Origin: Candidatus Hydrogenedentota bacterium
Lineage (GTDB): Bacteria > Hydrogenedentota > Hydrogenedentia > Hydrogenedentales > CAITNO01
Reading direction: 5' to 3'
Length of the DNA: 61,658 nucleotides
Assembly: GCA_012730105.1 (NCBI GenBank)
Contig: JAAYBJ010000019.1
Coordinates: forward strand, 1 to 61,658
The stretch's first letter is position 1. Each line of letters begins with the position of its first letter. The notes beneath the pieces were generated by a model. That model saw nothing but the letters and a program-made list of their open reading frames with translations, was not told the origin of the DNA and made no database searches. The position numbers and the translations under genes were made by a program. Shown here in pieces: positions 15,537-32,450 of this stretch.

Positions 15537-16961
15537 TCAGGATTCTGAGGCCAGTTTGTATTCGGAGGTGGTGACATCGGCGGGGTAGGCTTCGAGCCCC
15601 ATCTCGCTCTTGTCGAGGCCCAGGTATTCTTCCTCGGCCGTGACGCGCAACCCGACCACCGCTTTCGTTATGCCCCAGAAGAGAAAAGAAGCGCACAGCG
15701 TGAATGCGGCCACGGCGGCCACGCCGATACCCTGCACCAGGAGTTGTTTGATGCCGCCGCCGTAAAAGAGGCCCAGTTCCGTGTTGAACAGCCCCACGGC
15801 CAGGGTGCCCCAAACGCCGTTGACGAGATGCACAGATAACGCGCCCACAGGGTCGTCCAGGTGCATTTTGTCGAAAGTGATGACTGCTTCCACAACCAGG
15901 AAACCGGCGATCAGGCCGATGACTACGCTGCCGGTTATGCTGACCGCGTTGCATGGGGCTGTAATGGCGACCAAGCCCGCCAGGCACCCGTTGATGATCA
16001 TGCTCAGGTCGGGGCTGCCCAGCCGGAACCAGGCATAGAACATTGCCGCCACAACACCCGCCGCTGCGGCCATGGTGGTGGTCACGGCGACATGGGCGAT
16101 GGCGGAACCGTCGGCGGCCATGGTGCTGCCCGGATTGAAACCGTACCAGCCGAGCCAGAGAATGAGTCCGCCCAGTGTGGCCAGCGCGATATTATGACCG
16201 GGGATGGCGTTCACACTGCCGTCGGGCCGATACTTGCCCATCCGCGGCCCAAGCATCAGCACGCCTGCGAGCGCGGCCCATCCGCCCACGCTGTGCACCA
16301 CGGTGGATCCCGCGAAATCCAGGAAGGAAGCGCCCATCACGGAGGCCAGCCAGCCGCCGCCCCAGACCCAGTGCCCGGTGACGGGGTACATGAACGCCAC
16401 CAGCAGGGCGGCGAAAAGGATGTAGGCCTGAAACTTGATCCGTTCAGCCACGGCGCCGGAAACAATCGTTGCCGCCGTGCCCGCAAAGACCAGCTGGAAG
16501 AAAAACTTGGCTTCCAGCGGCACACCGGTCCAATTGAGGGAGGAATAAACGCCGGCATAGGCGTCGCCCGTCATCGGGCTGTTGTCCGCACCGCCCAGGA
16601 AGAATCCGGCCAGTCCCACCAGAAAGTGTCCGTCGCCGAACATCAGGGCAAAGCCGGTAGCCCAGAACGTCAGACTGGCGAGGGCGAACACAATGAAGTT
16701 TTTGGCCAGGATATTTACCGCATTCTTGCCGCGACAGAAGCCTGTTTCCACCAGGGCGAAACCTGCATTCATGAAAAAAACCAGGAATCCGGCGATCATC
16801 ACCCAGAGGGTGTCAAGCATCACCTGGTATCGGTCCGGGGCCGCAGCCTCTTCCTGGGCGTACGCCGGGGCTATTGCCAGAAACAACAACAACAGTGCGC
16901 CGCCCGGAATGGCAAACTTTTTCACTGTGCCGATACATCCGTTAACAGATCGTGTCTTCAT
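15537..16961 (-). CDS. amt: Ammonium transporter, Amt family
   Basis: The 474-residue protein starts at the ATG at 16961. It has a cleavable signal ([16 protein letters not shown]), as in other Amt proteins, followed by eleven likely membrane helices. Family signatures are present: [18 protein letters not shown], the central [38 protein letters not shown] with the first pore histidine region, GFNPGS, and VDDPVGA-like [23 protein letters not shown] with the second. It conducts NH4+/NH3 across the inner membrane. glnB lies 77 bp upstream on the same strand; GlnB-type proteins bind and close Amt channels when nitrogen is sufficient. Confidence 0.93.
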
Positions 16962-17038
16962 CGTATGGGTACCTTCCTGTTGAGAGTAATGGTTTTGATA
17001 TTTCAATGTTCTACCCGCGTGTCACGGACATCGGCAGG

Positions 17039-18247
<1,209 letters not shown>

Positions 18248-18745
18248 ATGGCCACTGCGATGCAAACGGCCGAGGGCCGGGACTTGCAGGAAATATTAGA
18301 GCGGTATCCCAATGCGGGCCGTGATGCGCTGATACCCATTTTGCAGGATTTGCAGGATGTATTCGGGTATTTATCGCGGGATATGATCGCCCGTGTGGGT
18401 GCGCATCTGCATCTGCCCGTCAGTAAGATTTATGGTGTGGCGACCTTTTATAACCAGTTCCGTTTCGCGGCGCTGGGCAAATATCATATTCAGGTGTGTC
18501 GGGGTACGGCCTGCCATGTGAAAGGTTCCGCGGGCGTGCTGGATGATATCCGGCGTTTGTTAACGCTGGAGCCCGGGGAAACTTCCCGTGACGGCTTGTT
18601 CTCGCTGGAGGTGGTTGCATGCATCGGCGCCTGCGGCCTTGCCCCCGTGATCCGGGTTAATGATGAGTTTTACGCGGAAATGACAACATCCAAAATAGAA
18701 CGGGTTTTCAAGACCCTGAAGAAAGAGGCGGAATCCCATGACTAG
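18248..18745 (+). CDS. hydC: [FeFe] hydrogenase NuoE-like subunit (HydC/HndA type)
   Basis: This 165-residue protein begins at the ATG at 18248, with AAGGAG 7 bp upstream. The N-terminal four-helix part (LIPILQDLQDVFGYLSRDMI, then VSKIYGVATFYNQF) and the thioredoxin-like [2Fe-2S] fold match the 24-kDa subunit of complex I. The cluster ligands are Cys84, Cys89, Cys125 and Cys129 in CRGTAC and CIGAC. In trimeric bifurcating hydrogenases this subunit relays electrons between NADH, the flavin subunit and the catalytic subunit. Its 3' end overlaps the next gene by 8 bp, indicating translational coupling. Confidence 0.9.
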   Translation: MATAMQTAEGRDLQEILERYPNAGRDALIPILQDLQDVFGYLSRDMIARVGAHLHLPVSKIYGVATFYNQFRFAALGKYHIQVCRGTACHVKGSAGVLDDIRRLLTLEPGETSRDGLFSLEVVACIGACGLAPVIRVNDEFYAEMTTSKIERVFKTLKKEAESHD

Positions 18746-20753
18746 TAAAACAGCGGGTGCCTGCGGGTGCGGATGTGCGAATGGTTCCAGTGTCTTCACC
18801 CCGGAAGAATTGACGGCGTGGTTTGCGGCATCGGAATCGGGAAAATTGGAACAGGGCTTGTGCGAGAAACTGTCCCTGCTGCGCCGTGAAGACGTCTTGA
18901 AGCCGACTATTTATCTTGGCATGGGCACCTGCGGTCTTGGCGCGGGCGCCGGCAAGACGCTCAAAGCGGTACGTGCGTGGCTGGATGCCGGGAAGCTGGA
19001 TGCGGACATCATTGAGGTGGGCTGCATCGGCCTGTGCAGCGCGGAACCGATTATGGACATACAACTGCCGGGTCGCCCCCGCGTTTCCTTTACGAAAGTG
19101 ACGGAGCAGGAAGCGCCGAATCTGCTGGAGGCTGTGTTCGAGGGGAAGGTCCCGGAGGCGGCGGTACTCGGTCAGTTTAACGGTGCCGGGTTGACCCCAT
19201 GGTCGGACACTCCGCTGCTTAAGGAGCATCCCTTTTTCGCGCCCCAGACGCGTTTTGTCCTGGCCCAGTGCGGTGAAATCGATCCGTCCAGCATGGATGA
19301 ATACATCGCTCATGGCGGATATCGCACGCTGGCGCGCGCGCTGGCTGAAATGAGCCCGGAGGCAATCTGCGCCGCAGTTGAACAAAGCGGTTTGCGTGGT
19401 CGTGGCGGCGGCGGCTTTCCCGCGGGACGCAAATGGAAATTTGCGCGGGCGGCCGAAGGTGACCAGAAATACCTGATCTGCAACGCTGATGAGGGTGATC
19501 CGGGCGCGTTTATGGACCGTGCCGTGATTGAAGGCGCGCCGCACCGCCTGGTGGAAGGCATGATCATCGCCGGGTATGCCATAGGTGCGACCAAGGGCTA
19601 TGTGTATATTCGCGCCGAGTACCCCCTGGCCATCGAGAGGTTGAAAAAGGCCTTTGCCCAGGCGCGCGCGGCGGGACTGCTCGGCGACAATATTCTGGGC
19701 AGCGGATTCCATTTTGACATTGTGTTGAAGATGGGCGCCGGTGCCTTTGTGTGCGGTGAGGAAACCGCGCTGATTCACAGCGTGGAAGGCAAGCGCGGCA
19801 TGCCCCGTCCTCGTCCGCCGTTTCCGGCGGTGCGCGGCGCCTTCGGCAAGCCGACGGTCATCAACAACGTGGAAACACTGGCGAATGTGCCGCCGATCCT
19901 GGCCATGGGCCCGGAGAAATTCGCGGCCATGGGCACATCGAACAGCAAGGGCACCAAGGTATTCGCCCTTTCCGGCAAGGTGGCGCGTACCGGCCTGGTG
20001 GAGGTGGCCATGGGCACTTCCATCCGCAGTATTATCTTTGACATTGGCGGCGGCATTCCCAACGGTCGCCGCTTCAAGGCGGTCCAGATGGGCGGCCCCT
20101 CGGGCGGCTGCATTCCCGAACAACACCTGGATATCGAGGTGGACTACGATTCGCTCAAGACTGTCGGGGCGATCATGGGTTCGGGCGGCATGGTTGTCAT
20201 GGATGAGGACACCTGCATGGTGGACGTCGCCAAATTCTTCATGGATTTCGTCCAGCGCGAAAGCTGCGGCAAATGCATTCCCTGCCGTGAAGGGACCCGC
20301 CGGATATTGGAGATACTGCAGCGCATCACGCGCGGCTACCGCAACGAGACCCAGGAGGCAACGCTGGAACGCTTTCAGGGCATCATGTACATGGAGCGCC
20401 TTGCCAAGGTAATCAAGGACACCAGCCTCTGCGGACTGGGCCAGACGGCGCCCAACCCGGTGCTGAGCACATTACGCTGGTTCCGCGATGAATATGAAGC
20501 GCACATTTACGAACGGCGCTGTCCCGCCGGCGTATGCCAGGAACTCCGGTATTTCACCATAGACCAGGAAAAGTGCATCGGCTGCACGCTGTGCGCCAAG
20601 CGCTGCCCGACGGGCGCGATCGTCGGCGAAGCGAAGCAGGCCCATTACATTCTCGTGGACAAGTGCATCGGCTGCGGTTCCTGTGTTACAGCGTGCCGTG
20701 TGGACGCGGTGCAACTGCGCCAATTCGAGGACGAACTCACCACGGTTCAGTGA
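18738..20753 (+). CDS. hydB: [FeFe] hydrogenase NuoF-like flavin subunit (HydB/HndC type)
   Basis: The 671-residue cytoplasmic subunit has an N-terminal thioredoxin-like [2Fe-2S] region (GMGTCGLGAG and VGCIGLCSAEP), then the NADH/FMN domain with GRGGGGFPAGRKW (about 221-233) and CNADEGDPGAFMDR, then the [4Fe-4S] site ESCGKCIPCREG (about 508-519). A C-terminal two-cluster ferredoxin follows: CIGCTLCAKRCP (about 614-625) and CIGCGSCVTAC (about 645-655). This full set is typical of bifurcating HydB, which couples NAD+ reduction and ferredoxin reduction to H2 oxidation, or the reverse. It overlaps hydC and is 41 bp from hydA. Confidence 0.92.
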   Translation: MTSKTAGACGCGCANGSSVFTPEELTAWFAASESGKLEQGLCEKLSLLRREDVLKPTIYLGMGTCGLGAGAGKTLKAVRAWLDAGKLDADIIEVGCIGLCSAEPIMDIQLPGRPRVSFTKVTEQEAPNLLEAVFEGKVPEAAVLGQFNGAGLTPWSDTPLLKEHPFFAPQTRFVLAQCGEIDPSSMDEYIAHGGYRTLARALAEMSPEAICAAVEQSGLRGRGGGGFPAGRKWKFARAAEGDQKYLICNADEGDPGAFMDRAVIEGAPHRLVEGMIIAGYAIGATKGYVYIRAEYPLAIERLKKAFAQARAAGLLGDNILGSGFHFDIVLKMGAGAFVCGEETALIHSVEGKRGMPRPRPPFPAVRGAFGKPTVINNVETLANVPPILAMGPEKFAAMGTSNSKGTKVFALSGKVARTGLVEVAMGTSIRSIIFDIGGGIPNGRRFKAVQMGGPSGGCIPEQHLDIEVDYDSLKTVGAIMGSGGMVVMDEDTCMVDVAKFFMDFVQRESCGKCIPCREGTRRILEILQRITRGYRNETQEATLERFQGIMYMERLAKVIKDTSLCGLGQTAPNPVLSTLRWFRDEYEAHIYERRCPAGVCQELRYFTIDQEKCIGCTLCAKRCPTGAIVGEAKQAHYILVDKCIGCGSCVTACRVDAVQLRQFEDELTTVQ

Positions 20754-20794: not shown

Positions 20795-22516
20795 ATGGTA
20801 AATATAGTAATTGACAACAAGCCTTGCGAGGTTCCCGCGGGAAGCACCATCTACGAGGCGGCCAGGAGCGTCGGTATTACTATCCCGACGCTCTGCCATA
20901 TGGAGGGGCTGACACCCACCGGCGCCTGCCGCATCTGCGTGGTGGAGGTGGAAGGCGCGCCCGGCCTGGTGCCTTCTTGTTCCTTCCCGGTCTCGGAGGG
21001 CATGAAAATAACGACTCATTCACCGCGCGTCCTGCTTGCCCGCAAGACGATCGTGGAGCTGTTGTTGGCCAACCACCCGGACGACTGCCTGTACTGCATC
21101 CGTAACAATGACTGCCGGTTGCAGGATCTGGCGGCAGACCTGGGTGTGCGCCGGCGCCGCTATACGGGCGCGCGCAACCGCTTTAAGGTGGACGTGTCCA
21201 GCCCGTCGGTCATACGCGATCCGGAAAAGTGCATCCTTTGCGGCAAATGCGTGCGGGTGTGCGAAGAGGTGCAGCAGGTGTCCGCCATCGACTTTATCGG
21301 CCGTGGAAGCAGTACGCACATCGGCACCGCCTTTGACGAGGGGCTGAACCTTTCCAGCTGTATCAATTGCGGCCAGTGTATTCTCGTGTGTCCCACCGGC
21401 GCGCTTCACGAACACGACCACCTCAAGGAGGTGGTGAACGCGCTGAACGACCCGGAACGGATGGTGGTCGTGCAGCATGCCCCGAGCGTTTCCGTGACCA
21501 TCGGTGAAGAATTCGGCCTCGCGCCCGGTACCGACTGCGACGGCATCATGGTGGCCGCCCTGAGGCGCCTGGGGTTCGACCGGGTATTCGACACGTCCTT
21601 CTCCGCCGACCTGACCATCATGGAGGAAGGTTCAGAACTGGTGCACCGCATCCAGAACGGGGGCAAGCTGCCCATGCTCACCAGCTGTTCCCCCGGCTGG
21701 ATCAAGTTTGCCGAACAATACTACCCCGATTTTCTGGATAATATTTCCTCCTGCAAAAGCCCTCAGCAGATGATGGGCGCCATTATTAAGAGCTACTTCG
21801 CCGAAAAGACCGGCATTGATCCTGACAAGATCTATAGCGTTTCCATCATGCCCTGCACGGCGAAGAAGTTCGAGGCGGGCCGCAAGGAGATGCTGCACGA
21901 AAGTTACGCGGATGTGGATGCGGTGCTGACGACGCGCGAACTGGCCCGTCTGATCCGTATGCGCGGACTCGACATGAAGGCCTTGGAGCCGGAAGGGGCC
22001 GACACGCCCTTCGGCGAGCGTACCACGGCCGGCAAAATTTTCGGCGCCTCGGGCGGCGTGATGGAGGCTGCCCTGCGCAGTGCCTATTTCCTGATTACGG
22101 GCAAGAACCTTGACAATCTCGAGGTAAAGGCGGTGCGCGGGCTGGAAGGGTGCAAGGAAGCCCATGTGAAGATCGGTGAACTGGAACTCGGCGTAGCCGT
22201 GGCCAGCGGCCTGAAAAACGCTGCCGCGCTGCTGGACCAAGTACGCAACGGGCGCAGCGACCTGCACTTTATCGAGATTATGACCTGTCCGGGCGGCTGT
22301 ATTGCCGGGGGTGGACAACCCCTGTCCACCGACCTGAACGCGATTACGCAACGCATGCAGTCCTTGTATGCCATTGATGCCGGGGAAACCGTGCGCGCAT
22401 CCCATGAAAATGAATCCATAAAGCGGTTGTACGAGGAATATCTCGGCAGCCCTCTCAGCAAAAAGAGCCATCATCTCCTGCATACCCACTACAGCAGCCG
22501 GGAAGTCATGCTATAA
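20795..22516 (+). CDS. hydA: [FeFe] hydrogenase catalytic subunit (HydA/HndD type, group A)
   Basis: The 573-residue catalytic subunit has an N-terminal [2Fe-2S] ferredoxin domain (Cys34, Cys45, Cys48, Cys62), the His-Cys3 region CLYCIRNNDC, and two [4Fe-4S] clusters (CILCGKCVRVC and CINCGQCILVC). The H-cluster motifs are complete: L1 TSCSPGW with Cys298, L2 MPCTAKKFE with Cys354, and L3 IMTCPGGCIAGGGQP with Cys498 and Cys502. The C-terminal small-subunit segment (RASHENESIKRLYEEYLG) is fused. TSCSPGW, with Ser replacing the second Cys of TSCCP, is typical of multimeric bifurcating enzymes. The active site needs the HydEFG maturases, which are not in this window. AAGGAG precedes the ATG. Confidence 0.94.
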   Translation: MVNIVIDNKPCEVPAGSTIYEAARSVGITIPTLCHMEGLTPTGACRICVVEVEGAPGLVPSCSFPVSEGMKITTHSPRVLLARKTIVELLLANHPDDCLYCIRNNDCRLQDLAADLGVRRRRYTGARNRFKVDVSSPSVIRDPEKCILCGKCVRVCEEVQQVSAIDFIGRGSSTHIGTAFDEGLNLSSCINCGQCILVCPTGALHEHDHLKEVVNALNDPERMVVVQHAPSVSVTIGEEFGLAPGTDCDGIMVAALRRLGFDRVFDTSFSADLTIMEEGSELVHRIQNGGKLPMLTSCSPGWIKFAEQYYPDFLDNISSCKSPQQMMGAIIKSYFAEKTGIDPDKIYSVSIMPCTAKKFEAGRKEMLHESYADVDAVLTTRELARLIRMRGLDMKALEPEGADTPFGERTTAGKIFGASGGVMEAALRSAYFLITGKNLDNLEVKAVRGLEGCKEAHVKIGELELGVAVASGLKNAAALLDQVRNGRSDLHFIEIMTCPGGCIAGGGQPLSTDLNAITQRMQSLYAIDAGETVRASHENESIKRLYEEYLGSPLSKKSHHLLHTHYSSREVML

Positions 22517-22527
22517 CGAAGAGGCCT

Positions 22528-24534
22528 ATGGACCCTGTCACCGACATAGCCGTTGTCACTACGATCAAGGAACGGTGCCGCGTTTGTTACACCTGTGTTC
22601 GAGAATGTCCTGCCAAGGCTATCCGCATTATTGACGGGCAGGCAGAAGTCATGCCCGAACGCTGCATCGGCTGTGGCAACTGCGTGCGCGTCTGCAGCCA
22701 AAACGCGAAACAGGTGCGCGATTGTACGGCGAGTGCCATGGCACTGTTGCAGGAAGACTCGCCGGTAGCGGCCTTGGTGGCACCCAGTTTCCCCGCCGAA
22801 TTTTCCGAATACGGTTATGCGGAATTCGTCGGTATGCTTCGCGCATTGGGTTTTTCCTATGTCTATGAAGTGGCTTTCGGGGCCGACTTGGTAGCCAGGG
22901 CATACAAGCAGTTGCTGGAAAATACGCCGGGCAGCCGGTATATCGCCACTACCTGCCCCGCCATTATCGCCTATGTGGAGCGGTATTATCCCGAGTTGGT
23001 ACCGATGCTTGCCCCGATCGTGTCGCCTATGATCGCGACGGCGCGCGTGGTGCGGCGGATTCACGGGCCGGAGATTCGCTCCATCTTTATCGGTCCCTGC
23101 ATCGCCAAGAAAGGGGAGATGCTCAGTTCCCTGCTGCCTCGGGAAGTTTCGGCGACCCTTGCGTTCTCTGAACTGCGCCTGTTGTTTTCCCTGTCCGGTA
23201 TAACACCGGAAGGAACGGAGCCCTCGGATTTTGACCCGCCTCACAGCGGCCAAGGCATGCTGTTCCCGATTAGCGGGGGCATGTTGCAGGCTGCCAACCT
23301 GCCGGAAGACCTGATGTCGGGAGAGATTGTGGCTGCCGAAGGCCGGGAACCTTTCGTCGACGCGATTCGTGAGTTCCAGTCCGCCGACGTGGATGTCGCC
23401 CTGCTCGAGGTGCTGGCCTGCCAGGGCTGCATTTCCGGACCGGGCATTACAAACCCGGCGCCGCTGTTCCGCCGCCGCAGCCTGGTCAGCCGCTATGCGC
23501 GCCAGCGGGCCGCCGCGGCGGATCATAACGCGTGGTTTGCGGAGATGCAGCGGTACGGCGATCTCAATCTGACCCGGCGATTCCAGGTGAAGGACCAGCG
23601 GCTCGCGTTGCCTTCCGAAGAGGACGTCCAGAAGGCGTTGGAGACGATGAACAAGTACGGCCCTGAGGATTACCTCAACTGCGGGGCCTGTGGCTATGAC
23701 ACCTGCAGGGAGCATGCCATCGCGATCTGCAAAGGCCTGGCCGAAACGGAAATGTGCCTGCCTTATACCATCGAAGAACTGAAGCGGGCGGTAGGCGATC
23801 TTGCCCTTTCAAATACACAGTTGAAAAAGACGCAACAGGCGCTCATGCATTCCGAGAAACTGGCCAGCATGGGGCAACTTGCCGCCGGAATTGCCCACGA
23901 GCTGAACAACCCGCTTGGTGTAGTGCTCATGTATTCGCACCTGCTCAAACGTGAGATTGACGATGCGGGCAAGCTTGGCCAGGACCTGAACACCATCGTG
24001 GAACAGGCGGATCGCTGCAAGAAAATCGTGGCCGGGCTGCTGCATTTCGCACGGCAGAACAAGGTTCAACGTCAGGCGGTCAACCTGGATAGCGTGGTCC
24101 GGGCCTGCCTCAAAGGCTGTCCAGCCCGCGATGGCATCCGCATCGATGTTCTGAATAAGATGAGCGACCCGGTGGTGGAAATCGACCGCGACCAGATCAC
24201 GCAGGTCATCCTGAACCTGGTGAACAACGCCTTGGACGCCATGACCACCTCGGGCGGGGTGTTGACTCTGACCCTGTCCGATACGGACAAACAGGCGCTC
24301 ATCGAGGTGCAGGACACTGGTCCCGGCATACCCGAAGATATAGTCAAGAAGATTTTTGAGCCGTTTTTCACGACCAAAAGCATCGGCAAGGGGACAGGCC
24401 TCGGCCTTTCCATTACGTATGGTATAGTAAAAATGCACAGCGGCGACATACGTTTCACCTCGAACTGCGATCCTGCCAAGGGGCCGACAGGCGCGAAGTT
24501 TACGGTGATGTTGCCGAGGTTTGAGCACGGATGA
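22528..24534 (+). CDS. Sensory [FeFe] hydrogenase-like protein fused to a histidine kinase
   Basis: This 668-residue protein starts 11 bp after hydA. Domains in order: two [4Fe-4S] clusters (Cys17/20/23/27 and Cys46/49/52/56); an H-cluster domain retaining all four cluster cysteines, Cys143 (TTCPAI), Cys191 (GPCIAKKGE), Cys298 and Cys301 (LACQGCISGPG); a CxxC-type Fe-S domain (Cys385, 388, 393, 410); a short coiled linker; and HisKA with phospho-acceptor His457 (GIAHELNNPLG) followed by HATPase (LVNNALDAM, DTGPGIP, GTGLGLSI). L1 lacks the second Cys/Ser and L3 lacks GGGQP, as in sensory rather than catalytic enzymes. The kinase-linked layout matches group C1 hydrogenases, proposed H2 sensors. 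There is no PAS domain. Confidence 0.88.
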   Translation: MDPVTDIAVVTTIKERCRVCYTCVRECPAKAIRIIDGQAEVMPERCIGCGNCVRVCSQNAKQVRDCTASAMALLQEDSPVAALVAPSFPAEFSEYGYAEFVGMLRALGFSYVYEVAFGADLVARAYKQLLENTPGSRYIATTCPAIIAYVERYYPELVPMLAPIVSPMIATARVVRRIHGPEIRSIFIGPCIAKKGEMLSSLLPREVSATLAFSELRLLFSLSGITPEGTEPSDFDPPHSGQGMLFPISGGMLQAANLPEDLMSGEIVAAEGREPFVDAIREFQSADVDVALLEVLACQGCISGPGITNPAPLFRRRSLVSRYARQRAAAADHNAWFAEMQRYGDLNLTRRFQVKDQRLALPSEEDVQKALETMNKYGPEDYLNCGACGYDTCREHAIAICKGLAETEMCLPYTIEELKRAVGDLALSNTQLKKTQQALMHSEKLASMGQLAAGIAHELNNPLGVVLMYSHLLKREIDDAGKLGQDLNTIVEQADRCKKIVAGLLHFARQNKVQRQAVNLDSVVRACLKGCPARDGIRIDVLNKMSDPVVEIDRDQITQVILNLVNNALDAMTTSGGVLTLTLSDTDKQALIEVQDTGPGIPEDIVKKIFEPFFTTKSIGKGTGLGLSITYGIVKMHSGDIRFTSNCDPAKGPTGAKFTVMLPRFEHG

Positions 24535-24987: not shown

Positions 24988-26139
24988 ATGAACCGCCTCC
25001 GTGTACTGGTGGTAGACGATGAGATCTATATCCGTTCCGCCATCGGACGCACCCTGGAATCCCTGCAATTCCCCATGCCCGATATCGATGAAACCGTGGC
25101 CTTCACCTTTGAAGAGGCGGGATCGGCGGAGGAGGCGATCGAGCATATCGCGAAAAACGCACCGCCGGACATCCTGCTGCTGGACCTCAAACTGCCCGGA
25201 ATCAGCGGCATCGAACTGCTTGAGCAAATGGAGGACAGCCTGGCCGAAACGCTGACCGTCATGATCACCGCCTACGCCTCCATTGAAACCGCGGTGCGCG
25301 CCACCAAGAGCGGCGCTTATGACTTCCTGGCCAAGCCCTTCACCCCGGATGAACTCGAGCAGGTGCTTCAAAAGGCCTCCCGGCATCTTATCGTCGCCAA
25401 ACAGGCCCGGCTCCTGGCCCAGGAACAGAGGCAGGTTCGGTTCCAGTTTCTTTCCGTGCTCGCCCATGAATTGAAGGCGCCCCTGAACGCCATTGAAGGC
25501 TTCCTTAACACGGTTATCGACCATACCGCCGGCAACGATCCCGCCGTGTATGAGGAAATGTTGCGCCGCTGCCGCACCCGCGCCCAGTACATGCGCAAAC
25601 TGATTATTGATTTGCTCGACCTCACCCGGATCGAATCCGGAAGGAAGAAGAGAAACGTCGGCGAGGTCAATATCGCCGCCGTGGCGAAACGCGCCGCGGA
25701 CACCATGCAGGGCGATGCCGACGCCCGTTCGATCAGTATAACAATTGAATGCGACCCCGGCCTGTCCATGTGCGGTGACGCAGGCGAGATCGAAATGGTT
25801 TTTAACAATCTTATTTCCAATGCCGTCAAGTACAACAAGGAAGGCGGCCGGGTTGATGTGCGTTGCGCCGGACAGGACGACACTGTGGTCATTGAGGTGG
25901 CCGACACGGGAATCGGCATGTCGGAAGAGGAGGCCGCACAGCTCTTCGAATCGTTTGTGCGAATCAAAAATGAAAAAACCTTCGGCATACTGGGCAGCGG
26001 TCTCGGGCTGGCCATCGTCAAGAAAGTGGCGTCGTTGTATGACGGCGGTGTTTTCCTGAGCAGCGTTCCGGACCAGGGAAGTGCTTTTACCGTGCGCCTG
26101 CACAGTATGAAAATGGATTTAGCGGAGGGGAACCAGTAA
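24988..26139 (+). CDS. Receiver-histidine kinase hybrid (REC-HisKA-HATPase)
   Basis: The 383-residue soluble protein has an N-terminal receiver (VDDE near 9-12, phospho-acceptor Asp66 in LLLDLKLPG, Thr in VMITAYAS, Lys in LAKPF), then HisKA with His160 (VLAHELKAPLNAIEG) and an HATPase domain (NLISNAVKYN, DTGIGM, GSGLGLAI). The receiver comes before the kinase, so input is probably phosphorylation by another kinase rather than a ligand. AAAGGA precedes the ATG, and the gap to the preceding receiver gene is only 3 bp. In context it may take phosphate from the hydrogenase-linked kinase and pass it to one of the two single receivers. Confidence 0.9.
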   Translation: MNRLRVLVVDDEIYIRSAIGRTLESLQFPMPDIDETVAFTFEEAGSAEEAIEHIAKNAPPDILLLDLKLPGISGIELLEQMEDSLAETLTVMITAYASIETAVRATKSGAYDFLAKPFTPDELEQVLQKASRHLIVAKQARLLAQEQRQVRFQFLSVLAHELKAPLNAIEGFLNTVIDHTAGNDPAVYEEMLRRCRTRAQYMRKLIIDLLDLTRIESGRKKRNVGEVNIAAVAKRAADTMQGDADARSISITIECDPGLSMCGDAGEIEMVFNNLISNAVKYNKEGGRVDVRCAGQDDTVVIEVADTGIGMSEEEAAQLFESFVRIKNEKTFGILGSGLGLAIVKKVASLYDGGVFLSSVPDQGSAFTVRLHSMKMDLAEGNQ

Positions 26140-26182: not shown

Positions 26183-26554
26183 ATGCCGGCTAAAACCATC
26201 CTGGTGATAGACGATGATCCCGATGTTCATTTTTTTTGCAAGAGCCTGTTGGAGGCGGAGGGATACCGCGTCAGGACCGCCATCAGCGGGGCGGCGGGAC
26301 TGAAGGCGGCCCAGGAGGAGAAGCCCGACCTCGTCATCCTGGACATTATGATGGAGCGGATTAACGCGGGCTACAAAGTGGCCGAGGCGCTGGGCAAGGA
26401 AATGCCTATTCTCATGTTTTCCTCCATGCTGAATCCATCCGATGCCGTTTTCGACCCCGACCAGGTGCCCTACCGGGACGTAATCAGCAAGCCTATCGCC
26501 GGCGAGGTATTGCTGGGCAAGGTCCGTGAGTTGCTGGGGGCTGATCCTGCATAG
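26183..26554 (+). CDS. Single-domain response regulator (receiver only)
   Basis: This 123-residue receiver has acidic residues in VIDDDPD, phospho-acceptor Asp54 (VILDIMMERINAGYKV), SSM in place of the usual switch T-S-A, and Lys in VISKPI. Like the receiver at 24583 it carries M-M-E-x4-G-[FY] after the phospho-Asp instead of M-P-x-x-x-G, suggesting both belong to the same specialised subfamily. It has no output domain. It is the last signalling gene of the cluster, 43 bp after the receiver-kinase. Confidence 0.88.
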   Translation: MPAKTILVIDDDPDVHFFCKSLLEAEGYRVRTAISGAAGLKAAQEEKPDLVILDIMMERINAGYKVAEALGKEMPILMFSSMLNPSDAVFDPDQVPYRDVISKPIAGEVLLGKVRELLGADPA

Positions 26555-28855: not shown

Positions 28856-29045
28856 TCCTGATTTCTCCTGGTTGGTTGTGGGCGTTAAGCCCTTTCAGCA
28901 CAACAGCCTTTAGTTTAACAGATATCCTCTCATTGCGCAAAGCCACGCTCCTGCGACGAGGCCCAATCAGCGGGGTGGAGAAAACATACTACATTTGACA
29001 GGGGAAAAGTGGTACGATATTCATCGTAGAAAAGGAATTCACTGT

Positions 29046-32000
29046 ATGCAGGAACGGGGTAAAGAAACAACGGGCCACATCCGCAGGTGCGGGGTAGGGG
29101 TGTTTCTTCTGGTCCTGCTGCTGTCCGTGGGTGCGGGTTATGGGCAGCTGTCCGAGGCGAATGAAGAGGATAAGCCCGTTTATGTGTTCAAGGGCGATCA
29201 CGCCTATCCGCCTTTCGAATATCTGAAAGACGGAATTCCCACCGGGTTTAATGTGGATCTGCTCAATGCCGTTGCCCGGGTCATGCAGATGGATATTCGT
29301 ATTGAACTGGGGCCCTGGGACGAGGTGCGCCGGGAATTTGAAGCGGGTGAGATCGATGGTCTTACCGGTTTCTTTCAACATGAAACCAGGTCCGATTTGG
29401 CGGACTTTTCCGTGCCTTTTCTGCAAAGTTCGGTAACCTTTTTTAAGCAAAAGAATTCTCCGGACCAAAGTCTTAAGGCCGTGTGGAACAAGTCCGTTAT
29501 TGTACAAACCGGGGATATCGCACACGATTATCTTCTTGGGGAAAAGTATCCCGGAAAAATTATCGAGGAGTCTTCGGCCGCGGCGGCCTTGCGGCGGTTG
29601 GCACGTGGCGAGGGTGACGGCGCCCTGATGGAGCATACCCAGGCCATGTACCTGTGCAAGGAACTCGGCCTGCATAATATCGTTTCCACGGAAGAAAACA
29701 TCGCGCCGGCCTTGTATTGTTTTGCCGTGGCGAGGCAGAATGTGCGGCTCCTCGATCAGCTGAATGAAGGCTACCGCCTTGTTCTCGTTACCGGGGAATT
29801 CGGTCAGATCTGGCTGAACTGGTTCAAGGAAACCCTGGAGGAGGAAGGCGGCTTTTATTTTCCGATCAGCTATTTCCTTATCGCTGTCCTGATCATTGTA
29901 TCCGTACTTTCCTGGCTGGCGCTCTGGAGCTATCTGCTGCGCCGCGAAGTGGCCAGGCGCACCCGGGACCTGCGGGAAAGCGAGGAACGTTACAGAACCC
30001 TCTTTGAGAACAGCAGCGATTCCATGTTTCTTATTCGTGACCGGGTGCTGGACTGTAACCAGCAGGCCTGTAAGATGCTTAAGATGCCGCGCGAAGAATT
30101 GATAGGCATTACACCGTCCGAATTTTCTGCGCCCGTGCAACCGGACGGGCGGAACTCGGAAGAGGCTGCGAATGCCTATATTGCCGAGGCCCTGTCGGGG
30201 CATCCCCAGATATTCACTTGGGTACACAGGCGCAGTGATGGAGAACTCCTCGACGTCGAGGTGTCCCTGTGCCGGATTACGGGACTTTCAGAACCGGCCT
30301 GCCTGGCGGCTGTCCGCGATTTATCGACGCGTATCAAGGCGGAACAGGTGATGCGCAGTCAGCAGGATCTTCTGCGCACGATCATGGAAACCAGTCCCGT
30401 GGGAATCTGCACTTTCAGTCCCGGAGGCGTCATCAATTTTGCTAATGCGCAGATGGAACGGATTTTCCACATGAAACGTTCGGAGCTTTGCGGACGGGCT
30501 CATGATGACGTCCGGTGGGATATGTTGGATATCGACGGGAATCCTTTTTTAAAAGGCGAAACGCCTTTCCTGTACATTGTCAACCAGAAAAAACCTGTTT
30601 ATGACCTGCAGTATTCGGTGGCACGCACCGGCGGCGGGCGGGTGGTCCTGTCGGTCAACGCAACCCCGCTGCTCGGTGAAGACGGTATTATGACCGGTAT
30701 TGTCGCGACAATGGAGGACATTACCGCACGGGTTGAGATCGAGCGGGAACGCGAGGCGCGATGGCAGCGGATAGAACAACAGCAGGCGGCGATCATCCGT
30801 ATCGGCCGGGATGCGGCCGCAGTGGAATGGGACTTTACGGTTTTGGCCCAGATGATTGTGTCCCTTTCCGCTGAGGTGCTCGATGTCTCCTTCAGTTCCC
30901 TCTGGCTGTTGAACGAAGACGCAAGCCTGCTCGCCTGTATCGCCTCATCGGCGATTGAACCCGCTTCCGAAACAAAAGTCCTGCGCGTAGACGAAATACC
31001 CGCTTACATGGAAGCATTGGAGTCAGGCCGGCATGTGGATGCCCCGGATGCCCGGCACGACCCGCGCACCATGCATCTGCTGGAAAATTATCTCGTGCCC
31101 AACAAGGTGGGCGCATTGCTGGACGCGCCCGTACGCGTGGGGGGCAAACTGGTCGGCGTCCTGTGCAATGAACATCACGGCGGTCCGCGGTACTGGCGGC
31201 CCGATGAACTGCAATTCGCGGCAGAGATATCCGACCAGGTATCCCAGGCGCTGGTGCTCCAGGAACGTCGCCGTACTGAGGAAGAACGGCGGATGTACGA
31301 AAAACGCATGCAACAGTCGCAGAAACTGGAAAGCCTGGGCATTCTTGCCGGCGGTCTTGCCCACGATTTCAACAATCTGCTGACGGCGATTATGGGCAAC
31401 GTGGACCTGTCGCTTATGGACATTCCCGAAGAGAATCCGGCAACCTCTTCCCTGAAAGAGATCAAGGCCCTGTCAAACCGCGCCGCCGACTTGTGCCGTT
31501 CCATGCTGGCCTATGCCGGTAAAGGCACTTTCGTTATCAAACCGCTCGGTTTGAATGAAGAAGTACGGCAGATGGGACAGATGACCGCGTCTTCGATTAC
31601 CAGGAATATTCATGTTGTTTATGCGCTTGACGATAATCTTCCCGCCGTGGATGCGGATAAAGGCCAGATTCACCAGGTCATAATGAACCTGCTTCTGAAT
31701 GCCGCCGAGGCCATAGGGGACAAAAACGGCACCATCACGGTTCGCACGGAGAAAGTGGAATGTGATCCTGACTATTTTCAGGACGGCTATTTTACAGATA
31801 TGCTCGAAGACGGAACCTATGTGGCCCTGGAAGTATCAGACACGGGCGCAGGCATGGATCGTGAGACGCTGGAGAAAATTTTTAATCCTTTTTTCAGCAC
31901 CAAGTTCGTCGGCAGGGGTATGGGGCTTTCCGGCGTACTGGGCATCGTGCGCGGGCATAAGGGCAGCATCCGGGTGTACAGTGAGCCCGGGCATGGCTCC

Positions 32001-32450
32001 ATTTTCACGGTGTTGCTTCCCGCAAGTACCGGGACGTATGAAAGCGACCATGGTTTTCTGGAAAGCGCTTCTACGCAGGGCGAATACACAACCGTGCTGC
32101 TGGTGGACGCCAACCTGTCTTCACAGCGGATAACCACGAAGATACTGGGCCGCCTGGGATATGCGGTGGTCACGGCGGCCGGGCTTGAGGAGGCGGCGGA
32201 CCTGTTGCGGAACGGCCGGCATTCAATTCCGTGCATGATTATCGAGCATGCGCCCAACTTCCCCTTCGATGAACAGAAAATTCGGGAACTTCGCCGGGAA
32301 TTTGGGCGCACCGCCCTTCTGATGACCACCGACCTGGAAGAACGGGACGCCGCGCGCCTCTATGGACGGCTTGGTTTTGTAAGTTTCCTGCAAAAGCCCT
32401 ATCGTGTGGCGGAGCTCGCCGCCAAGATCAGTACATGTATCGGTGGGTAG
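29046..32450 (+). CDS. Periplasmic-binding hybrid sensor histidine kinase with degenerate receiver
   Basis: The product has 1134 residues from the ATG at 29046 (AAGGA upstream). Domains: signal sequence; family 3 solute-binding sensor (about 40-265, FKGDHAYPPFEYL to GEFGQIWLNW); membrane helix (YFLIAVLIIVSVLSWLALW); two PAS domains; a GAF domain; HisKA with His773 (GLAHDFNNLL); HATPase (NLLLNAAEAIG, DTGAGM, GMGLSG); and a C-terminal receiver. The receiver has lost its chemistry: the acidic pair is VDA (Asp1021, Ala1022) and the phospho-acceptor position carries Glu1067 (MIIEHAP), while QKP keeps the lysine. It probably senses an amino acid or similar ligand. No separate response regulator is adjacent. 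Confidence 0.88.
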   Translation: MQERGKETTGHIRRCGVGVFLLVLLLSVGAGYGQLSEANEEDKPVYVFKGDHAYPPFEYLKDGIPTGFNVDLLNAVARVMQMDIRIELGPWDEVRREFEAGEIDGLTGFFQHETRSDLADFSVPFLQSSVTFFKQKNSPDQSLKAVWNKSVIVQTGDIAHDYLLGEKYPGKIIEESSAAAALRRLARGEGDGALMEHTQAMYLCKELGLHNIVSTEENIAPALYCFAVARQNVRLLDQLNEGYRLVLVTGEFGQIWLNWFKETLEEEGGFYFPISYFLIAVLIIVSVLSWLALWSYLLRREVARRTRDLRESEERYRTLFENSSDSMFLIRDRVLDCNQQACKMLKMPREELIGITPSEFSAPVQPDGRNSEEAANAYIAEALSGHPQIFTWVHRRSDGELLDVEVSLCRITGLSEPACLAAVRDLSTRIKAEQVMRSQQDLLRTIMETSPVGICTFSPGGVINFANAQMERIFHMKRSELCGRAHDDVRWDMLDIDGNPFLKGETPFLYIVNQKKPVYDLQYSVARTGGGRVVLSVNATPLLGEDGIMTGIVATMEDITARVEIEREREARWQRIEQQQAAIIRIGRDAAAVEWDFTVLAQMIVSLSAEVLDVSFSSLWLLNEDASLLACIASSAIEPASETKVLRVDEIPAYMEALESGRHVDAPDARHDPRTMHLLENYLVPNKVGALLDAPVRVGGKLVGVLCNEHHGGPRYWRPDELQFAAEISDQVSQALVLQERRRTEEERRMYEKRMQQSQKLESLGILAGGLAHDFNNLLTAIMGNVDLSLMDIPEENPATSSLKEIKALSNRAADLCRSMLAYAGKGTFVIKPLGLNEEVRQMGQMTASSITRNIHVVYALDDNLPAVDADKGQIHQVIMNLLLNAAEAIGDKNGTITVRTEKVECDPDYFQDGYFTDMLEDGTYVALEVSDTGAGMDRETLEKIFNPFFSTKFVGRGMGLSGVLGIVRGHKGSIRVYSEPGHGSIFTVLLPASTGTYESDHGFLESASTQGEYTTVLLVDANLSSQRITTKILGRLGYAVVTAAGLEEAADLLRNGRHSIPCMIIEHAPNFPFDEQKIRELRREFGRTALLMTTDLEERDAARLYGRLGFVSFLQKPYRVAELAAKISTCIGG

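Follow-up and report, generated by a model that had tools for sequence, protein, structure and literature searches.

The window (the whole analysed stretch of 61,658 nucleotides) carries a run of seven + strand genes, from hydC to a second receiver gene, which overlap or are separated by gaps of 48 bp at most:

18242-18745 (+): hydC, thioredoxin-like [2Fe-2S] subunit, NuoE-like (Pfam)
18738-20753 (+): hydB, NuoF-like FMN/Fe-S subunit (Pfam)
20795-22516 (+): hydA, catalytic [FeFe]-hydrogenase subunit, passing the NCBIfam cut-off for 'NADH-dependent, group A6'; it ends 11 bp before the fusion gene
22528-24534 (+): H-cluster/PF04060/histidine kinase fusion, group C1-type sensory [FeFe]-hydrogenase, 668 aa
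24583-24984 (+): receiver-only response regulator, D58 invariant in 71 relatives
24988-26139 (+): receiver-HisKA-HATPase_c protein, H160 and ATP-binding motifs invariant
26183-26554 (+): second receiver-only response regulator; close matches at the equivalent position are restricted to the nearest relatives (L001, L002, L036, L080)

The open reading frame of the fusion gene starts with ATG, and its product consists of a 2x[4Fe-4S] ferredoxin domain, the H-cluster domain, a PF04060 [4Fe-4S] domain, HisKA, and HATPase_c, in this order. All the Pfam matches, including the four proposed for an HMM scan in the sequence-only reading (Fe_hyd_lg_C, PF04060, HisKA, and HATPase_c), exceed the curated cut-offs, and no PAS domain was found in the protein by the same scan. 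Along the chain, the features are as follows:

22567-22707 (+): N-terminal 2x[4Fe-4S] ferredoxin domain, Fer4 pair, residues 14-60; Cys17, 20, 23, 27, 46, 49, 52, and 56, invariant in 73 aligned proteins
22762-23442 (+): H-cluster domain Fe_hyd_lg_C, residues 79-305 (Pfam E 2e-41)
22948-22965 (+): L1 motif TTCPAI; C143 is the CpI C300 ligand, T142 replaces the proton-transfer cysteine C299
23086-23118 (+): L2 motif FIGPCIAKKGE; G189 (CpI M353), C191 (C355), K194 (K358), E197 (E361)
23413-23445 (+): L3 motif LACQGCISGPG; L296 (CpI M497), C298, and C301, with CX2C spacing
23674-23763 (+): C-terminal [4Fe-4S] domain PF04060, residues 383-412; CX2CX4CX16C formed by C385, C388, C393, and C410
23758-23955 (+): modelled continuous helix, residues 411-476, from the Fe-S domain into the HisKA helix (AlphaFold2; pLDDT 53-64 over residues 431-460)
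23869-24057 (+): HisKA, residues 448-510; phosphoacceptor His457 in the H-box AHELNNP, invariant
24184-24519 (+): HATPase_c, residues 553-664; intact N (N563, N567), G1 (D596xGxG), and G2 (GTGLGL) boxes

The sequence-only reading had described an H-cluster domain fused directly to a histidine kinase, with a separate Fe-S domain (Cys385, 388, 393, and 410) before the kinase and no PAS domain in between. The Pfam order and 72 homologues with the same five domains agree with this description, PF04060 is matched at residues 383-412 with all four cysteines invariant, and the residue numbers are correct. A hidden PAS domain is rejected by the Pfam scan of all aligned members (0/73) and by the helix model.

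The homologues originate from a scan of genome contigs that gave 574 related stretches, of which the 80 best loci were retained. An alignment was made of 72 full-length homologues, 47-79% identical to the fusion protein, with the window protein (73 rows). According to the records, they represent about a dozen phyla (Hydrogenedentota, Latescibacterota, Planctomycetota, Acidobacteriota, Bacteroidota, Elusimicrobiota, Fermentibacterota, Lentisphaerota, Caldisericota, Marinimicrobia, Myxococcota, Verrucomicrobiota, and WOR-3). Fe_hyd_lg_C, PF04060, HisKA, and HATPase_c are present in 73/73 members. The invariant residues comprise 16 cysteines (8 of the ferredoxin domain, 4 of the H-cluster, and 4 of PF04060), K194, E197, and the residues that mark a two-component kinase, namely H457, N563/N567, D596/G598/G600, and G620-G626. 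We regard the fusion as genuine and conserved, and it looks functional. In the tree, its H-domain groups with those of the other kinase-fused sensors and is separated from catalytic HydA with a branch support of 100/99, and the kinase-fused group adjoins the PAS-type HydS clade, far from catalytic HydA. The family profile is matched at E <= 1e-60 by 40 of the 68 Hydrogenedentota genomes, with some of these matches being of the PAS type or kinase domains alone.

A paralogue from Bacteroidales (L038 1329-3176 (-), L042 1315-3177 (-), L044, L045, L065, and L070 (-)) is nested within the kinase-fused clade. It is adjoined by a SpoIIE phosphatase gene and transcribed away from hydCBA. In its H-domain the ligand C298 is replaced by Asp or His and K194 by Ala or Thr, while the PF04060 cysteines are kept; in L039, C298 is retained and K194 is Ala. 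Judging from these residues, the paralogue is probably unable to hold a complete H-cluster, because C298 and K194 are lost.

Catalytic group A enzymes are characterized by L1 TSCCPxW, L2 MPCxxKxxE, and an L3 with GGGQP. The fusion protein has TTCPAI, GPCIAKKGE, and CQGCISGPG at these places (CpI equivalences were taken from the alignment to group A enzymes, CpI numbering from papers and general knowledge). The four ligands of [4Fe-4S]H (C143, C191, C298, and C301) and the L2 pair K194/E197, recognized already from the sequence, are invariant in 73/73. The missing second Cys/Ser before Pro in L1, also pointed out there, corresponds to C299 (Thr142) in the CpI alignment, with C143 at the place of C300. 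The L3 indeed lacks GGGQP, and it is also one residue short between the ligand cysteines (CX2C vs CX3C). The residues at CpI C299/M353/M497 are T/G/L, which are replacements of the sensory type, as proposed earlier, at the positions that are changed in the published HydS enzymes. In TmHydS, these positions are A/G/S, and in TamHydS M353 is Ser and M497 is Leu (PMC10055695, PMC8163306; residues compared as given in the papers). The loss of C299 has been described for the M2e/M2f HydS enzymes (PMC8163306, PMC10055695).

The CX2C spacing is found in 71/73 kinase-fused proteins, and L043 and L053 show CX3C in the alignment columns; the spacing shifts between the two forms within the family with no loss of ligands. 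CX3C is present in the PAS- or phosphatase-linked HydS proteins (the copy on contig C266, L026, the R. albus plasmid HydS-like protein, and L111) and in catalytic HydA. Since L3 is CX2C in 71/73 members, the full H-cluster geometry is not assured. The modelled H-domain matches the fold of solved [FeFe]-hydrogenases (E about 1e-21). In a 2024 study of Hydrogenedentota, the H-cluster motifs could hardly be found in group C1, and H2 sensing was doubted (PMC11406978); the difficulty with the standard signatures is probably due to the CX2C L3 together with TxCPA and GPCxAKKxE.

In HydDB, group C1 is described as 'histidine kinase-linked (putative)', with its function undetermined (PMC5037454). For Hydrogenedentota, 53 group C1 sequences with a HATPase_c domain have been reported, 21 of them beside group A3 genes (PMC11406978). 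The fusion protein is filed in this already named class, and its architecture is not new. The filing is based on the kinase linkage (HisKA and HATPase_c in one chain, motifs intact), on the sensory-type H-domain (set apart from groups A/B by NCBIfam scores below the cut-offs, by the tree, and by the replaced C299/M353/M497), and on the assignments in PMC11406978. With the class as published, it shares the sensory-type H-domain, the linked or fused histidine kinase ATPase, the position beside group A3 hydrogenase genes, and the phylum. There is no fundamental difference, only that the motifs, hardly located there, could be identified in the present alignment, in which L3 is CX2C.

The CX2CX4CX16C motif is a hallmark common to the published HydS enzymes, M2e/M2f (PMC8163306, PMC13104023). 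TmHydS (group C, M2f, Thermotoga maritima) resembles the fusion protein in the 2x[4Fe-4S] and H domains, the CX2CX4CX16C cysteines, the replaced C299, the M353 to Gly change, and its location in the same operon as another hydrogenase. Unlike the fusion protein, which has the M2f-type cysteines (C385, C388, C393, and C410) and no PAS, TmHydS carries a PAS domain behind the Fe-S domain, a fused kinase is not described for it, and its C299 and M497 are replaced by Ala and Ser instead of Thr and Leu. In the case of TamHydS (group D, M2e, Thermoanaerobacter mathranii), the absence of PAS, the Fe-S and H domains, and the M497 to Leu change are the same as in the fusion protein, whereas M353 is Ser instead of Gly. 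Its gene adjoins a bifurcating hydrogenase operon, and a separate kinase-like gene lies nearby, with the kinase not fused. The R. albus plasmid HydS-like protein (L110, C3-like) and the C266 copy (L106) have the same H-domain and PF04060 at about 30% identity; unlike the fusion protein, they have no fused kinase, an adjoining SpoIIE-like gene (a SpoIIE phosphatase for L110), a CX3C L3 and, in the C266 copy, PAS. The missing PAS had been presented as a contrast to HydS-type sensors, which is right with respect to TmHydS but too strong in general, since group D TamHydS also lacks it, and both the CX2CX4CX16C domain and the histidine kinase-linked C1 class were already known.

Among the related loci with enough flanking sequence, the gene directly upstream of the fusion is hydA in 62/69, a receiver gene lies downstream in 65/74, and the receiver-kinase gene is present in 64/70. 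The operon hydC-hydB-hydA-hydS-receiver-(receiver/kinase) is conserved in about a dozen phyla, a detail that is new here, as are the constant span between C410 and H457 and the presence of HydE/F/G in the genome. In a limited literature search, mostly without subscription papers, we found no description of the receiver/receiver-kinase operon or of the CX2C L3, and no biochemistry of any kinase-fused member. A DNA-binding domain is absent from all three in-operon regulators, so the operon shows no visible output.

The product of hydA itself has TSCSPGW as L1, in which Ser takes the place of the CpI C300 ligand. The TSCSP variant, reported earlier for Melainabacteria, is common to 46/49 HydA sequences matched by pattern in the fetched loci. 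A gene for a Rex-like redox repressor occurs in 32/45 long related loci, usually immediately ahead of hydC or immediately behind the receiver-kinase gene (e.g. L010 3107-3805 and L042 11567-12196); none was found in the 61,658-nt window. A scan of the whole window for sigma-54 promoters gave 21 matches vs 21.9 expected, and the region upstream of hydC, aligned with three relatives, shows no clear conserved motif. Elsewhere in the window are a large sensor kinase (28995-32450; SBP_bac_3, PAS, GAF, HisKA, and HATPase_c) and, as judged by eye, genes resembling those of an ammonium transporter and a PII regulator, which are divergent from the hydrogenase operon (15537-17404 (-)).

The source genome encodes HydE, HydF, and HydG, all above the curated cut-offs. 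HydF is above its cut-off in 43 of the 48 genomes with relatives, and four more show weaker, split, or cut HydF matches. The maturases are expected anyway, because these genomes also encode catalytic HydA. There are seven Fe_hyd_lg_C genes in the source genome. One is a second kinase-fused copy, 55% identical, on contig C180 (L105 749-2861 (-)), and a third sensor, with PAS, lies on contig C266 (L106) next to a SpoIIE-like gene, a Rex-like gene, and another HydA. The C180 copy adjoins a receiver-kinase gene and, further on, a thiamine-dependent 2-oxoacid:ferredoxin-oxidoreductase-like gene in place of hydCBA, a neighbour not found in the other fetched loci.

The AlphaFold2 model was calculated for the monomer on the 73-row alignment, with a mean pLDDT of 87 and most of the H-domain above 90. 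In this model, a single helix leads from the last PF04060 cysteine to the phosphoacceptor helix, with low confidence around residues 431-460. The span from C410 to H457 is 47 residues in 72/73 proteins and 40 residues, exactly one heptad less, in L072, and most other inter-motif distances are more variable among the 73. Such constancy would be expected of a coiled-coil signalling helix and suggests, rather than proves, one; a helix that leads directly from the Fe-S domain to HisKA, as modelled, agrees with the passing of a signal at that place. The C-terminal cluster of TamHydS remains oxidised under 1 atm H2 (PMC13104023), which argues against a simple electron relay via this cluster and leaves a conformational route open.

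We assign a probability of roughly 70% to the fusion protein being a soluble histidine kinase that senses H2 (or the H2/H+ redox poise) and signals via the C-terminal [4Fe-4S] domain and the helix to His457, and then to the downstream receivers. The sensory-kinase part of the sequence-only interpretation is well supported by the sensory substitutions, the intact ligands and kinase motifs, the NAD-linked/bifurcating-type hydrogenase operon, and the maturases, while the implied contrast with known systems goes too far. The loading of the H-cluster, the response to H2, the direction of the signal, and the output we infer as follows. The H-cluster would be built by HydE/F/G, and H2 would be bound at a slow, sensory-type site. 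A redox or conformational change would be passed to the C-terminal [4Fe-4S] domain and through the fixed-length helix into the HisKA dimerisation helix, altering the autophosphorylation of His457. The next acceptor of the phosphate would be the receiver-only regulator and/or the receiver-kinase protein, whose genes follow just downstream, and these may tune the NAD-linked HydABC encoded in the same operon, or else fermentation genes at other loci.

The shortened L3 also agrees with a general redox sensor kinase (ferredoxin or NADH-linked), in which kinase activity would be set by the Fe-S clusters, whereas the H-domain would be either a relic or a site for the [4Fe-4S]H cubane alone. The published difficulty in finding H-cluster motifs in group C1 and the doubt on H2 sensing (both PMC11406978), the Bacteroidales paralogues that keep the PF04060 cysteines without C298 and K194, and the Rex gene near many loci point in the same direction. 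We consider such a sensor unlikely, though a real competitor: C143, C191, C298, C301, K194, and E197 are invariant in 73/73, unlike in the paralogues that lost them, and both CX2C and CX3C occur in the family with the ligands intact. In addition, K194 (CpI K358) is among the residues known for contacts with the [2Fe] site and has no role in a plain cubane. That the protein is a catalytic hydrogenase subunit which also carries a kinase, with H2 turnover as its main job, is very improbable. The ferredoxin domain for electron input, the intact ligands, and the place in a hydrogenase operon would suit it, but C299, M353, and M497 are all replaced, GGGQP is absent, the H-domain stands apart from HydA in the tree, and the adjoining HydABC already does the catalysis. 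The NCBIfam scores of 179 bits for B1 (cut-off 450) and 102 bits for group A (cut-off 406) reject, together with the motifs, a catalytic group A/B enzyme. A chimeric gene call or assembly artefact, suggested by nothing else than the unusual domain order, is refuted by 71 contigs from other genomes that carry the same fusion, as does contig C180 of the source genome, and its chance is negligible.

Returning to the H2-sensing kinase, a more specific version is speculative and improbable as a whole: the fused sensor and its receiver-only partners could form a self-contained phosphorelay that responds to H2 by controlling the co-encoded bifurcating/NAD-linked hydrogenase directly, at the level of the protein, through an H-cluster with the shortened CX2C L3 and with no transcription factor in the operon.

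[FeFe]-hydrogenases are still no more than putative H2 sensors, one reason being that the HydS proteins studied so far lack a fused output that could be assayed. The single-chain H-cluster/kinase protein offers a direct read-out, namely autophosphorylation compared between H2 and argon. The fixed span of 47 residues between the Fe-S cysteine and the phospho-His provides a concrete hypothesis of coupling. The alignment also bears on the published doubt on the group C1 ligands: the kinase-fused family keeps them, mostly with a CX2C L3 that the canonical signatures would miss.
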